Below are positions 27,410-31,486 of a stretch of DNA of 64,000 bases, one piece after another; position 1 is the first letter of the stretch; each line of letters starts with the position of its first letter. A program made the translations under genes and the position numbers. Location of the stretch: contig NZ_FOQG01000019.1 in NCBI RefSeq assembly GCF_900113685.1, positions 1-64,000 on the forward strand, written 5' to 3'. Origin of the DNA: Nocardioides psychrotolerans (lineage in GTDB: Bacteria; Actinomycetota; Actinomycetes; Propionibacteriales; Nocardioidaceae). The notes under the pieces are model-generated. The model worked only from the letters and a program-made list of their open reading frames with translations. It ran no database searches and was not told the DNA's origin.

Positions 27410-27868
27410 TCACAGGCTCCCACTGTCGTTGCCAGTGGCCTTGCAAGTGAACGTCGCGGTGAGCAACGGGCCGGTCCAGGAGCGGATCGTGGCGCCGATG
27501 GTGAGGGTCCACGTCGTGGCCGCATTGTCCCGCGCGCGCGATCCCGTGAGCGAGGCAGTCCTGGTCGTCGACGTCGCAGTCGCCTCGGGGGCTCCGGTGG
27601 CCGACAACCGGTAGACGTAGGACGAGCCGGCGGGTCCGGCATCGGTGAAGCCGGTGACCGACACCGTGGCGCTCTCGGTGAGCGTGGTGCGCGAGCAGGA
27701 GAACGTGCCGGTCATGGACGTGGGCGCGACGAGCTTGGCCGTGCCGACCGCGAAGATCGGGGCCTGCCGGGCGGTGAACGCCGCATGAGCGATCTGCGGG
27801 GCCATCAGCAGGCACAGGACGCCCAGGGTCAGCGAGACGGCGCGGCGCGCGATCTCTGACCGGTTCAT
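27410..27868 (-). CDS. Small secreted protein of the SipW/TasA cluster
   Basis: This 152-residue protein has a signal peptide ([20 protein letters not shown] and on to [10 protein letters not shown]) and a mature beta-rich domain full of Thr, Ser and Ala. It has two cysteines (TFSCSR and TFTCKA) that could form a disulfide. No family is recognised. AGGAAG lies six bases before the ATG. Its upstream region carries the same 11-bp-spaced CTTGAGG repeats as the TasA-like gene, and it is divergent from the response regulator. It is probably a minor fibre component or surface protein processed with TasA, but this is inferred from context. Confidence 0.72.
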
Positions 27869-27950: not shown

Positions 27951-27990
27951 CCTCAAGCACGGCCCGGATGAACCTCAAGAAGCCCTCAAG
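27951..27990. promoter_or_regulatory. CTTGAGG direct repeats, probable response-regulator sites
   Basis: CCTCAAG occurs at 27951, 27973 and 27984 on the plus strand, with start-to-start spacings of 22 and 11 bp. OmpR/PhoB-type regulators bind direct repeats with 11-bp spacing. The block lies between the secreted-protein gene (start 27868, leftward) and the regulator gene (start 28009, rightward). An almost identical pair precedes the TasA-like gene at 30666-30683. Confidence 0.65.
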
Positions 27991-28008
27991 GTCTGGCAGA
28001 CTCACGAT

Positions 28009-28737
28009 ATGTCTGCTGCTGGTGTCGAGCGTCGCGCGGTCGTCGTCGAGGACGACGAGGACATTCGCTCGCTCATCGAGTTCACGCTCACGAGTCAGGG
28101 CTTCGAGGTGCGTTCCGTCGACTCCGGGCTGGCCGGGATCGAGTGCGTCGCCAGCTTCGACCCCGACCTCGTGACCCTCGACCTCGGCCTGCCCGGCATC
28201 GACGGGATCGAGACGTGCCGACGCATCCGCGAGACCAGCGACGTCTACATCGTCATGATCACGGCTCGCGACGAGGAGATCGACCGGCTGATCGGCCTCG
28301 AGACCGGAGCCGACGACTTCCTCTCCAAGCCCTTCAGCCCTCGCGAGCTCCAGGCCCGTGTCAACGCCCTCTTCCGTCGGCCGCGCCGCACCACCGCCAC
28401 CATGACCGAGAGCGTCCCCACGCCCCTGCCCGAGACGACCAACGAGATCCTCGACCACGGTCCGCTGAAGGTCGACGTCGACGGACGACGCGCCTTCCGG
28501 GGCGACGAGGAGCTAGCACTGACCCGCACCGAGTTCGACCTGCTGACCGAGCTGATGCGCACCCCCGCGCGAGTGTGGACGCGCGAGGCGCTGCTGCGGT
28601 CGGTCTGGGGCACGGAGTGGGCCACCGACACTCATCTCGTCGAGGTCCATGTCGGCAACCTGCGACGCAAGCTGGGCGACGCCGCGCCGCTGGTGCGCAC
28701 CGTGCGGGGCGTCGGCTACCGCATGGAAGCACTCTGA
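28009..28737 (+). CDS. OmpR/PhoB-family response regulator (orphan)
   Basis: This 242-residue regulator has a receiver domain (residues 8-120) with the acidic pair VEDDED, the phospho-acceptor Asp in DLVTLDLGLPG, Thr in IVMITARDEE and Lys in DDFLSKPFSP. The C-terminal winged helix (about 150-240, LTRTEFDLLTELMRTPARVW through RTVRGVGYRME) is complete. No histidine kinase gene is adjacent; the convergent neighbour is an Hpt-like protein. There is no Shine-Dalgarno sequence at the ATG, and CTTGAGG-type repeats lie 19-58 bases upstream, which suggests autoregulation and control of the secreted-protein genes. Confidence 0.92.
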   Translation: MSAAGVERRAVVVEDDEDIRSLIEFTLTSQGFEVRSVDSGLAGIECVASFDPDLVTLDLGLPGIDGIETCRRIRETSDVYIVMITARDEEIDRLIGLETGADDFLSKPFSPRELQARVNALFRRPRRTTATMTESVPTPLPETTNEILDHGPLKVDVDGRRAFRGDEELALTRTEFDLLTELMRTPARVWTREALLRSVWGTEWATDTHLVEVHVGNLRRKLGDAAPLVRTVRGVGYRMEAL

Positions 28738-28746
28738 CGGGCGCCG

Positions 28747-29112
28747 TCAGCGGTCCTGGCACGCCACGAGGTACGACGTCAGCGCCAGGTCTGCGCGCTC
28801 CGCAGCGTCCGCCAGCAACCGGGCACGCGCGTAGGCGCCGACCAGGTCCCCGGCCCGCAGCCTCGTCTCGATGTAACGCGCCATCTCCACCAGCTCGAGC
28901 GCACCGACGATGCTGCTGGCGACCCGCAGGCTGAGCGTCGCATCCATCGCCTGGTCGAGGTCGCCGCGCTCCGTCGCGGACACGATGCGCGTCACGCGCT
29001 GGGGCAGCAGGCGGCGGTACTTCTGGGCGAAGCTCACCATGAACGGCCAGTGGGACACGTCCACTGCGAGGCGGTCGAGGTCACGGGGGTCGAAGGTGCT
29101 CATCAGGCTCAC
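28747..29112 (-). CDS. Hpt-like helical protein lacking the phospho-acceptor histidine
   Basis: This 121-residue all-helical protein matches the histidine phosphotransfer (Hpt) pattern. Where Hpt domains have H-S-L-K-G-S-S-A-N-x-G-A, it has LSLRVASSIVGALEL at residues 60-74, so Leu replaces the His. The surrounding helices (FMVSFAQKYRRLLPQRVTRI, DLDQAMDATLS, VEMARYIETRLRAGD) fit the four-helix bundle. The GTG start at 29112 overlaps the SipW stop; an ATG at 29103 is the alternative. It may bind the receiver of the convergent regulator without transferring phosphate (inference). Confidence 0.65.
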   Translation of the reverse strand: MSLMSTFDPRDLDRLAVDVSHWPFMVSFAQKYRRLLPQRVTRIVSATERGDLDQAMDATLSLRVASSIVGALELVEMARYIETRLRAGDLVGAYARARLLADAAERADLALTSYLVACQDR

Positions 29113-29804
29113 TCCTGCTCACCATCAGCGAGGTCGGCATCGGCCGGGTCAGCCTCGTCCTTCGACCAGATCGTCGTCAGGCCGAGCAGGAGCGTGCCGG
29201 CGATGGCCACCCAGAGCAGGCCCTTGCTCACGAACGGGTGGTGAAGGGCACGGATGACGGTGCCGATCTCGGGGATGACCCCTTGGACCTCCCAGACGAC
29301 GTCGCCGTCGAGGACGGCCGTCCACGGGTCCACGTTGGCGTTGGCGTCACCCTGCGTGCGCACGGCGACCGTGCCGTCGTCACCGTGGATGACCTCGGTC
29401 ACGCGGTGGGTCTCGACCCGGTGGTCCTCGATCGGGATCTGGTAGCTGATCACGTCACCCACCTCGACGTCGGCAGCCGGTCGGGGCGCCGTCACGACGA
29501 CGTCGCCAGGCATGATGCCGGGCGCCATGCTGCCGGTCAGCATGGTCGCGGTGCGGTAGCCGAAGACGTGGGGGCCGACGGCCAGGACCAGGAAGGACAG
29601 CAGGCAGGCGGCGAGCAGGAGGCTCAGCAACGCGGAGCCCAGGCGGGCGGGCACCGAGCCACGCGGTGCGCGCTGCCCGGACCTGCCGGAGCTGCCGGAC
29701 GCGGCCACGCCGGCGCCCGAGGGCGCGATGGCCTGCGGCCGCCGTACGGGCGTGGGCGCAGCGGCGCGGTGACGGCCGACGACGGTCGGGACGGCGTGGC
29801 TCAT
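29109..29804 (-). CDS. sipW: SipW-type signal peptidase I
   Basis: This 231-residue membrane peptidase follows the ER/SipW-type pattern. A proline/arginine-rich cytoplasmic N-terminus (1-52) precedes a transmembrane helix (LGSALLSLLLAACLLSFLVL). The catalytic Ser motif is TMLTGSMAPGIMPGDVV, followed by HRVETHRVTEV, where a His replaces the Lys of bacterial SPases. GDANANVDPW and a C-terminal helix (LLWVAIAGTLLLGLTTIW) complete it. SipW enzymes mature TasA-like proteins, and such a gene lies directly upstream, 116 bp away. Coupled translation with the Hpt-like gene puts the fibre protein, its peptidase and a signalling protein in one operon. Confidence 0.9.
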   Translation of the reverse strand: MSHAVPTVVGRHRAAAPTPVRRPQAIAPSGAGVAASGSSGRSGQRAPRGSVPARLGSALLSLLLAACLLSFLVLAVGPHVFGYRTATMLTGSMAPGIMPGDVVVTAPRPAADVEVGDVISYQIPIEDHRVETHRVTEVIHGDDGTVAVRTQGDANANVDPWTAVLDGDVVWEVQGVIPEIGTVIRALHHPFVSKGLLWVAIAGTLLLGLTTIWSKDEADPADADLADGEQE

Positions 29805-29920: not shown

Positions 29921-30556
29921 TCACTTGAAGGTGGCGGCGCGCTGCGTGGCGTCGAAGGTGAAGGTGAGGTTGTTGGCCAGGCCCTGGAAGGTGTTGTCGG
30001 CCGTGGCCGGCAGCAGCAGCTGGATCCGGAGATAGGAGGCCGCACCCACGGCGTTGAGCGTCGTCGTGGCTGCCGCCATGTCGACCGCGGTGCCGATGAC
30101 GGGCTTCGAGGCGATGACGGTGGTGGGCGTCGTGGCGCAGGCCAGCTCGTTGGTGGTGCCGACCTTGGTCCACGGGGTGGCGCACTGCTCGACGGTGAGC
30201 TGCAGGCCGTTGGTGGTGTCGGAGGAGAGCAGGTTGGCCGTGCCTGCCGACGTGGTGAGCTTGACCGACCCGAAGGCCTCGGTGTTGGCGTTGCGGACCA
30301 GGGTGACCGAGCGCTGTACTCGGTCGCCGGGGACCATGTTGGTCGCGGCGACGGTGGTGCCGAGGTCGGCGTGCTGGGTGAGCTCGATCTTGACGTTGCC
30401 GTTGGCGACGGCCTCGCTGGCGGCCGTGCTCGAGGTGAACGCACCGAAGGTGCCGAGACCGGCCACGGAGGCAGCTCCGGCAACCAGGACGACCGAGGCG
30501 AGGATCTTCGTCGAGTGCTTGCGAGCGGTGCGGCTGGAGGCGGTGTGCTTGCTCAT
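29921..30556 (-). CDS. TasA/CalY-like surface fibre protein
   Basis: This 211-residue secreted protein has a long basic N-terminus (MSKHTASSRTARKHSTKILA), a hydrophobic segment and the SipW-type processing region GTFGAFTSSTAASEAVANGN. The mature domain is beta-rich (KIELTQHADLG, MVPGDRVQRSVTLVRNANTE, LTVEQCATPWTKVG, FQGLANNLTFTFDATQ), as in TasA/camelysin proteins that assemble into extracellular fibres. It has two cysteines. It is followed by the SipW-type peptidase. The upstream gap to the SGNH gene holds paired CTTGAGG repeats. Its Shine-Dalgarno sequence is weak. Confidence 0.85.
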   Translation of the reverse strand: MSKHTASSRTARKHSTKILASVVLVAGAASVAGLGTFGAFTSSTAASEAVANGNVKIELTQHADLGTTVAATNMVPGDRVQRSVTLVRNANTEAFGSVKLTTSAGTANLLSSDTTNGLQLTVEQCATPWTKVGTTNELACATTPTTVIASKPVIGTAVDMAAATTTLNAVGAASYLRIQLLLPATADNTFQGLANNLTFTFDATQRAATFK

Positions 30557-30665: not shown

Positions 30666-30683
30666 CCTCAAGCAAGCCTCAAG
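30666..30683. promoter_or_regulatory. Paired CTTGAGG repeats upstream of the TasA-like gene
   Basis: CCTCAAG at 30666-30672 and 30677-30683 (plus strand) are spaced 11 bp start to start, 110-127 bases upstream of the TasA-like start. On the coding strand the block reads CCTTGAGG-CTTG-CTTGAGG. The site at 27973-27990 reads CCTTGAGG-GCTT-CTTGAGG. Two TTGATCCGG copies follow closer to the gene. This is a probable binding site for the response regulator at 28.0 kb. Confidence 0.65.
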
Positions 30684-30685
30684 GA

Positions 30686-31486
30686 TCAGCCGACGACGAG
30701 ATCGCGCTCCAGGTCGGCGGCCAACCGCTCGGCGAAGTAGGCGTGACCGTCGTTGTTGAGCAGCCCGCCCTCACCGAAGTAGGCCGGGGCGTCGGCCCCG
30801 GTGAGCCACTCCTCGCCGAAGGTGTCGACGCAGGTGATGTGGTCGTTCTCGAGGGGCTCGCACATGCCCATCCCGCGCGGGTTGCCGTAGGGGAGGACCA
30901 CTGCGATGACCGCGTCAGGCACGCGTCCGCGCAGCGTCGTGACCGTGTTGCGCATGAGCTTGCGGATGACCGGCGTCGTGGCGGGTGAGCGCATCTGGGC
31001 GGAGATGACCACGACGTCCGGCACGAAGTCGTCGTCGGTCTGGAGCCGGAAGACCCGGTCGAGGTATTGGCTGCCGGGCGTCGTCGGCGCGCTGTGCGCC
31101 CAGCCGGAGCCGGGGACGGCGTCCACGCGGTACTCCCAGCCGAGATCCTTCGACACGAGGTGGACGAAGCTGGCCCTCTGCAGGGCGGCTCCCTCCCCCG
31201 CGGTCCAGTCATCGCCGATGAAGAGGACCTTGGCTGCAGCCGGCACGGACAGGGGCGCCCCCGCGGTGTCGGGGCCCGCCGCGGGCACCGCCTCCGGATC
31301 GCCGGAGCCGGTGGAGAACTGAGTGACCAGCAGCGCCACGGTCAGGGCGGTGGCGGCGATGACGCCGAGCAGCGTGAATCGCCGGACAGCGACGTCTCGG
31401 CCCGTGTCGGTGGACCGCCCCCATGACGTGGACACGTCGGCGATCCTACGTGGTCCGGTCCGGTGCGAGATCGGATGTTTGCCCAC
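30686..31486 (-). CDS. Membrane-anchored SGNH/GDSL-like protein with altered nucleophile
   Basis: This 266-residue protein has an N-terminal transmembrane helix (FTLLGVIAATALTVALLVTQ, about residues 37-56) and an external SGNH-like domain. Block I reads VLFIGDDWTAGEGA, where family members have GDS, so the catalytic Ser is replaced by Asp. The other blocks are visible: GSGWA (block II-like Gly), PDVVVISAQMRS (block III region, usually GxND) and DGHAYFAERLAADL (block V His). The GTG at 31486 is the apparent start, but the exact start is uncertain. It lies directly upstream of the TasA-like gene and may be a non-hydrolytic surface protein. Confidence 0.7.
   Translation of the reverse strand: MGKHPISHRTGPRRIADVSTSWGRSTDTGRDVAVRRFTLLGVIAATALTVALLVTQFSTGSGDPEAVPAAGPDTAGAPLSVPAAAKVLFIGDDWTAGEGAALQRASFVHLVSKDLGWEYRVDAVPGSGWAHSAPTTPGSQYLDRVFRLQTDDDFVPDVVVISAQMRSPATTPVIRKLMRNTVTTLRGRVPDAVIAVVLPYGNPRGMGMCEPLENDHITCVDTFGEEWLTGADAPAYFGEGGLLNNDGHAYFAERLAADLERDLVVG

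Follow-up and report, generated by a model that had tools for sequence, protein, structure and literature searches.

A conserved Hpt-like protein without the phospho-accepting histidine, encoded between response regulator and SipW-type signal peptidase genes in Nocardioides psychrotolerans

The window analysed here is a stretch of 64,000 nucleotides from Nocardioides psychrotolerans (contig NZ_FOQG01000019.1, positions 1 to 64,000). At 28747..29112 on the minus strand it carries a small gene whose product has the fold of a histidine phosphotransfer (Hpt) domain in which Leu occupies the phospho-accepting site, as judged from the open reading frame (ORF), Pfam, an orthologue alignment and the predicted fold; we call this product pseudo-Hpt. 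Read from its GTG, the ORF encodes 121 aa; a better start is the ATG at 29103, which has AGGAG upstream and gives 118 aa. Convergent with it lies a gene for an OmpR/PhoB-type response regulator (28009..28737, plus strand; Pfam and alignment) in which both acidic residues, the acceptor Asp, the Thr and the Lys are present. The two stop codons face each other with 9 bp between them, in agreement with the convergent arrangement described in a first-pass annotation of this DNA. On the other side, the stop codon of a SipW-type signal peptidase gene (29109..29804, minus strand; TIGR02228 at 57.8 bits against a cut-off of 51.85) overlaps the pseudo-Hpt GTG within the letters GTGA; the preferred ATG is found 5 nt past that stop. 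Upstream of sipW is a gene for a TasA/camelysin-family secreted protein (29921..30556, minus strand; PF12389 at 34.5 bits, cut-off 22.5), a likely SipW substrate that gave only a chance match below cut-off against NCBIfam; it is the first gene of a presumed tasA-sipW-pseudo-Hpt operon.

The active helix of pseudo-Hpt reads D-A-T-L-S-L-R-V-A-S-S-I-V-G-A. The codons for L-S-L-R-V-A-S-S, the former phospho-His helix, occupy 28912..28935 on the minus strand (sequence and alignments), and the first of them, 28933-28935, places Leu at the His position. These are residues 60-67 counted from the GTG, where the first-pass annotation had already read the motif with its flanking G-A, or 57-64 counted from the ATG, and they are followed by I-V-G-A. 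The Leu is in register with the His of Pseudomonas aeruginosa HptB (7c1i; query DAvLSLkvss against HTAHSFKGGS). The Pfam Hpt model (PF01627) is the sole Pfam match of the window protein, with E 2e-4 and 22.0 bits against a curated cut-off of 24.6, and no NCBIfam model matches it; among 48 family members, 44 match the Pfam model at E<0.1 (best 2.1e-8).

A structure was predicted with AlphaFold2 (AF2) from a 48-row alignment (A1) and has a pLDDT of 94.8 and a pTM of 0.87. It is a four-helix Hpt bundle of the PF01627 kind, which VIA-align superimposes on 7c1i with Z 16.4 and 1.9 Å over 114 residues. In the VIA-align ranking, 21 Hpt rows (Z 12.7-16.4) score higher than any unrelated bundle, the best of which is a bRIL fusion with Z 12.6. 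Foldseek has Hpt domains or HPt proteins in all of its ten best Protein Data Bank rows, although the E-values are weak (1.7e-3 at best, none below 0.001). Because a Z under about 13 may, for bundles, reflect arrangement alone, the case for an Hpt fold is made by the top VIA-align rows together with the sequence. Some other helical bundle is unlikely, since Hpt rows lead both lists and the sequence agrees.

Conservation of the Leu was followed across 50 orthologous loci: the window, 12 loci from a protein search (96 relatives) and 37 from a search with the neighbouring response regulator. The protein search gave a 13th relative as well, L020, a large protein carrying His, which was excluded. 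Leu occupies the His position at all 50 loci, and L-S-L is invariant across the 48 rows of A1; none of the loci has His, so the Leu is not a one-off mutation. Together with the predicted Hpt bundle, this gives good support to the first-pass suggestion that the protein is not a phosphotransferase. Profile searches extended the set to a second family within the order, where 18 of 19 loci have Leu and 1 has Ala, and to further families of the class. A de-duplicated tree of 143 rows contains 118 Leu, 16 His and 9 other residues. The named loci fetched by the Leu-containing pattern MDAVLSLK count as no evidence for Leu; without the 39 tree rows obtained in this way, Leu is found in 79 of 88 His-less rows, and profiles A1 and A2 themselves favour Leu. 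The tree was built on 115 columns, with 63 of its 140 inner branches open, and places two changes from His to another residue, both on poorly supported branches.

Residues around the Leu are conserved to differing degrees in A1 and in the 30-row alignment of the second family (A2). Ser at His+1 is found in 48/48 A1 rows and 29/30 A2 rows, and the residue at +3 is basic in 47/48 A1 rows. The Asp at His-3 is replaced by Val or Ile in 13 of the 30 A2 rows, and His+4 is Val, Thr, Ala, Ser or Asn, with Gly in no row of either alignment. No column has His in more than 12 of the 48 A1 rows or 4 of the 30 A2 rows; with no other His column conserved, another His as the phospho-site was rejected. The ratio of nonsynonymous to synonymous substitution rates (dN/dS) lies between 0.14 and 0.49 for 11 of 12 pairs, the remaining pair having 0.73 (median 0.31), which indicates purifying selection. 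A one-off mutation or a decaying gene was likewise rejected, given Leu at 50/50 loci and this dN/dS range. The residue conservation and the dN/dS together argue that the protein is kept, and kept His-less; pseudo-Hpt thus combines the Hpt fold, the lack of the His and the conservation of that state.

His-bearing Hpt proteins were also seen. Five further Hpt matches above cut-off occur in the same genome; their ORFs are 766-1128 aa long, and the motif His is present in every one. Two loci, L156 (5590-5952) and L157 (4966-5355), encode small stand-alone Hpt proteins with His (HTLKSGA) that are convergent to a response regulator and may represent the ancestral type of pair in the same genus. In family f41 (L235, L236, L238-L240 and L243), small His-bearing Hpt-like proteins have HALGSP instead of HxLKG; the ORFs convergent to them are long and show a weak match to a receiver.

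The response regulator is a conserved neighbour. A search of 215 genus-mates with it gave 67 places in 60 genomes; pseudo-Hpt is present at 49 of them, convergent in every case. With six loci found by the pseudo-Hpt profile (L149-L154) there are 73 response regulator loci, 55 of which have pseudo-Hpt, all 55 convergent and 45 with the stops at most 50 bp apart. Since 37 of the 50 orthologous loci had come through the response regulator search, the pairing was counted separately from the side of the Hpt-like query. A convergent OmpR-type response regulator lies at 12 of the 13 loci found by the Hpt-like protein alone (the 13th being the large His-bearing protein), at 18 of the 19 second-family loci found by profile, at 6 of 8 further own-family loci and at 10 of 17 class-search loci. 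Among the 80 named loci, the response regulator is adjacent in 29, SipW in 21 and both in 5. In a survey of 95 response regulators, the best one per locus, all 95 have the acceptor Asp and the Lys as well as the first of the two acidic residues. The second of these is present in 93; the exceptions (D-A, not D-D) are the partners of the His-bearing Hpts of L156 and L157.

Sensor kinases accompany some of these pairs. In the three Arthrobacter loci examined, all three have a HisKA/HATPase kinase divergent from the response regulator (order pseudo-Hpt > < response regulator kinase >), and these kinases are without a receiver match. L032 shows the same order with a kinase 41% identical. The first-pass annotation had called the window response regulator an orphan, and locally this holds: the three Arthrobacter kinases match nothing in the window (E 1e-3), other kinase types not having been searched for. 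The window response regulator therefore seems to have lost, or never to have had, such a neighbouring kinase.

Two further sets of loci concern the pairing. In Arthrobacter-type loci L309-L312, L317-L319, L323, L325 and L327-L329, pseudo-Hpt is kept in place, and in 8 of these 12 other genes replace the response regulator and the next gene; the set is a natural test for distant partners of pseudo-Hpt. At L077, L079, L081, L085, L086, L088 and L093, relatives of the response regulator lie near glnA and/or glnE without pseudo-Hpt or SipW, the glnA assignment being based on DNA likeness. Five of these seven genomes (G176, G223, G170, G097 and G008) have a second copy of the response regulator, three beside SipW.

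The first-pass annotation had proposed translational coupling to the SipW-type peptidase. Natural fusions go beyond this claim in showing a second partnership. SipW and pseudo-Hpt are fused in one frame in 11 ORFs, five in the genus of the window (L074, L076, L089, L154 and L155), five in Arthrobacter (L283, L287, L313, L320 and L322) and one in family f6 (L227). In the six fusions checked, the signal peptidase model matches all six (five above the TIGR02228 cut-off) and Pfam Hpt matches five at E<0.05 (two above cut-off). In the AF2 model of the L155 fusion, a long helix is followed by a beta-rich part and then by another helix, with a loose linker before the Hpt domain. The fused domain (residues 215-331) matches 7c1i with Z 16.5 and has block pLDDT values of 90-98; with a whole-model pTM of 0.40, the relative placement of the parts is unreliable. 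From SipW topology, the fused domain presumably faces the cytoplasm. Unfused sipW and pseudo-Hpt genes are neighbours in 39 loci (35 after removal of duplicate contigs, window included), with the domain start -7 to +50 bp from the sipW stop in 37 loci and 194 and 255 bp from it in the other two. Pseudo-Hpt is thus linked to SipW both by fusion and by adjacency. On the tree the fused state needs five changes, of which the starred branches force only one; repeated fusion is likely. One Arthrobacter locus (L279, Arthrobacter sp. MA-N2) has two pseudo-Hpt matches with a SipW-like match nearby.

Two other genes flank this group. Divergent from the response regulator gene is a second small secreted-type protein (27410..27868, minus strand), which has no family match above cut-off and whose relatives lie beside the response regulator in most SipW loci. 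Between the tasA operon and glnE lies a GDSL-type hydrolase-like gene (30686-31486, minus strand), a relative of which occurs in L021, a locus in which neither SipW nor TasA-like genes were detected.

Repeat counts point to a predicted binding site for the response regulator upstream of its own gene (27952..27990, plus strand), with three CTCAAG repeats at 27952, 27974 and 27985, 22 and 11 bp apart. They stand directly before a -10-like block: the conserved TCTGGCA and then a putative -10 element, CAGACT (27997..28002, plus strand), come just before the response regulator start (window 27990-28009), and the transcript may be leaderless. TCTGGCA occurs in 34 of 73 upstream regions, including response regulator loci without CTCAAG repeats. 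Repeats phased at 11 bp that replace a -35 element resemble PhoB boxes. A pattern search found a second 11-bp-phased repeat, TCAAGCAAGCCTCAAG (30668..30683, plus strand), upstream of the tasA-sipW-pseudo-Hpt operon, and the pattern YCAAGN6YCAAG occurs twice in the window against 0.17 expected. Repeats phased at 11 or 22 bp lie upstream of the response regulator in 21 of 35 loci with SipW or the divergent secreted-protein gene (the module) and in 0 of 38 loci without both (Fisher p 2e-9, overstated since the loci are related). Module loci contain 38 repeat sites against 6 in a reversed control and 1 with wrong spacing in 378 kb; loci without the module contain 4 against 3 and 0 in 383 kb. Of 29 regions upstream of tasA, 18 contain the repeat with at most one mismatch, against an expectation of about 0.02 for each region. 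No claim is made for 19 SipW loci, comprising named loci and L227, in which 6 sites compare with 2 and 1 for the controls, or for 84 other loci (48 against 27 and 3).

We consider it fairly probable that the bacterial pseudo-Hpt docks on the receiver of the response regulator without phosphotransfer, as feedback from the SipW/TasA module or tethered to it. The His is lost and the fold kept, a response regulator is the neighbour, and in some species the domain is fused to SipW; pseudo-Hpt therefore probably acts through docking and not through phosphate transfer. We infer receiver binding from the gene pairing and the fold. The first-pass proposal of a receiver-binding adaptor or sequestering protein thus has indirect support, from the conserved convergent pairing with a single response regulator family that keeps its phospho-site and from the kinase gene order of the three Arthrobacter loci and L032. 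In the simplest such circuit, the response regulator would bind the CTCAAG repeats and switch on its own gene and the tasA-sipW-pseudo-Hpt operon. Pseudo-Hpt, as the last product of the operon or hung on the cytoplasmic end of SipW, would then bind the receiver at the surface that Hpt domains and the DHp domains of kinases contact, where it could compete with phosphorylation or hold the response regulator at the membrane. The outcome would be a negative feedback linking fibre-protein production to the amount or state of SipW. By analogy with the plant protein AHP6, we favour inhibition over storage at the membrane or protection of the phosphorylated response regulator. It is possible, if doubtful, that in some actinobacteria the SipW peptidase doubles as a receptor, its membrane-tethered pseudo-Hpt capturing an OmpR-type receiver and releasing it according to the state of the peptidase.

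Several observations weigh against docking on the neighbouring receiver, or against its link to the SipW module. Pseudo-Hpt is missing from 18 of the 73 response regulator loci, three of them with SipW, and it is still carried by 23 of the 38 loci without the SipW module, so that the partnership is not obligate. Neither an OmpR-type response regulator nor SipW is adjacent in 35 of the 80 named loci, and a near relative, L187, has no response regulator within 6 kb on its 3′ side. The Leu is less uniform beyond the order: 17 class-search loci (L218-L234, stand-alone or SipW-linked) have 11 Leu, 2 Ile and one each of Val, Gln, Ser and Gly, the remaining 16 class-search loci fetched having 15 His and 1 Glu. 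In the second family (A2), the Lys or Arg at +3 is frequently Glu, Ala or Gly. When 54 response regulators with pseudo-Hpt were compared with 18 without, the receiver face differed at residues 17, 24, 25, 29 and 88, with further differences elsewhere, including the DNA-binding domain; the comparison is confounded by descent and gave no clear enrichment at the docking face. TCAAGN6TCAAG occurs four times in the whole genome, two of them at this locus, and its reversed control also four times; because the control is equally common, the clustering at the locus is informative and the genome total is not. That the repeats belong to this response regulator we infer from their position.

There are other possibilities for what a conserved, His-less Hpt protein does here. 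Pseudo-Hpt could be a regulatory subunit of the SipW peptidase, affecting its stability, activity or place with no action on a receiver, as the 11 fusions and the 39 adjacent loci (35 after removal of duplicate contigs) would allow; moreover, 16 of the 80 named loci have SipW and no adjacent OmpR-type response regulator. However, pseudo-Hpt pairs with the response regulator in 23 loci lacking both SipW and the divergent secreted-protein gene, only 3 of 20 second-family loci (L032, L168 and L169) show a SipW-like match, which is not in line with pseudo-Hpt, and the Hpt fold is a receiver-docking fold. We therefore regard a role confined to SipW as unlikely. The near-universal Ser at His+1 (48/48 in A1, 29/30 in A2) and the intact phospho-site of the response regulator would instead suit a protein that either dephosphorylates or protects the phosphorylated receiver, with CheZ-type phosphatases and the connector PmrD as models. 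Known receiver phosphatases use an acidic or amide side chain at their centre, whereas the centre of pseudo-Hpt has no invariant side chain of either kind, the His-3 Asp being Val or Ile in 13 of 30 A2 rows, and this activity is distinctly unlikely.

Pseudo-Hpt could also act as a decoy for hybrid-kinase receivers or for distant true Hpt domains, its link to the neighbouring response regulator being regulatory only. The genome does hold five other Hpt matches above cut-off, all His-bearing, and the available part of PMC12785465 describes plant AHP6 as an Hpt protein without the phospho-accepting His that acts as a repressor, of cytokinin signalling. The conserved neighbour, however, is an OmpR-type response regulator, accompanied in three Arthrobacter loci by a kinase that has no receiver match, which makes a decoy of this kind very unlikely. 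We give almost no weight to a working phosphotransfer protein that uses another residue: the Hpt fold is intact, but no other His column is conserved, and Gly at His+4, present in many Hpt domains, is never found in A1 or A2.

Docking on the receiver of the response regulator thus stays our preferred reading, and it would matter beyond this locus. Soil bacteria from two or more families of a single order, and Arthrobacter as well, have kept a His-less Hpt next to a phosphorylation-competent response regulator. Should it bind the receiver, two-component signalling would have an input that needs no phosphorylation, and there would be a concrete, testable route from a SipW-type peptidase to gene regulation. 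If SipW were in addition a receptor, the secretion of TasA-type fibres would be read out directly as a transcriptional signal; bacterial two-component signalling would here employ the Hpt fold without phosphotransfer, in parallel to the second, regulatory role of Bacillus SipW. In the literature searched, which included few subscription journals, His-less Hpt proteins came from plants only, and we found no bacterial pseudo-Hpt family and no link between SipW and Hpt. Nothing there joined SipW-dependent secretion, Actinobacteria and a response regulator, nor was anything relevant found on SipW, Arthrobacter and TasA together. The bacterial papers PMC11481889, PMC3842833 and PMC5964349 concern, in the parts available, kinase or transmitter domains. 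Pseudo-Hpt proteins are known in plants; a bacterial family linked to SipW appears new in that literature.

Among known systems, the Hpt family PF01627 is closest (closest solved structures P. aeruginosa HptB, 7c1i, and a Shewanella Hpt, 3myf). Pseudo-Hpt shares its fold, detectable sequence similarity, the Gly-Ala after the active helix and the basic residue at +3; unlike that family, it lacks the phospho-accepting His and the Gly at His+4 and has a conserved Leu-Ser-Leu. With the plant pseudo-HPts (Arabidopsis AHP6/APHP1) it shares being an Hpt protein without the phospho-accepting His. It differs from them in being bacterial, in the prevalence of Leu, in its pairing with an OmpR-type response regulator gene and in its coupling or fusion to a signal peptidase, and its origin would appear to be independent of theirs. 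The Bacillus SipW-TasA system likewise has a SipW-type peptidase and a TasA/camelysin-family protein in one gene row, whereas actinobacterial SipW carries, or precedes, an Hpt-fold domain; we know of no Hpt domain on Bacillus SipW. The available part of PMC4238804 describes Bacillus subtilis SipW as bi-functional, with a second role in surface-adhered biofilm, and an Hpt-like domain on actinobacterial SipW would be a parallel to that role rather than an explanation of it. Finally, pseudo-Hpt resembles receiver-binding connectors such as PmrD in being a small protein expected to act on a response regulator receiver without phosphotransfer; PmrD is not an Hpt fold, whereas the domain in the window derives from Hpt.
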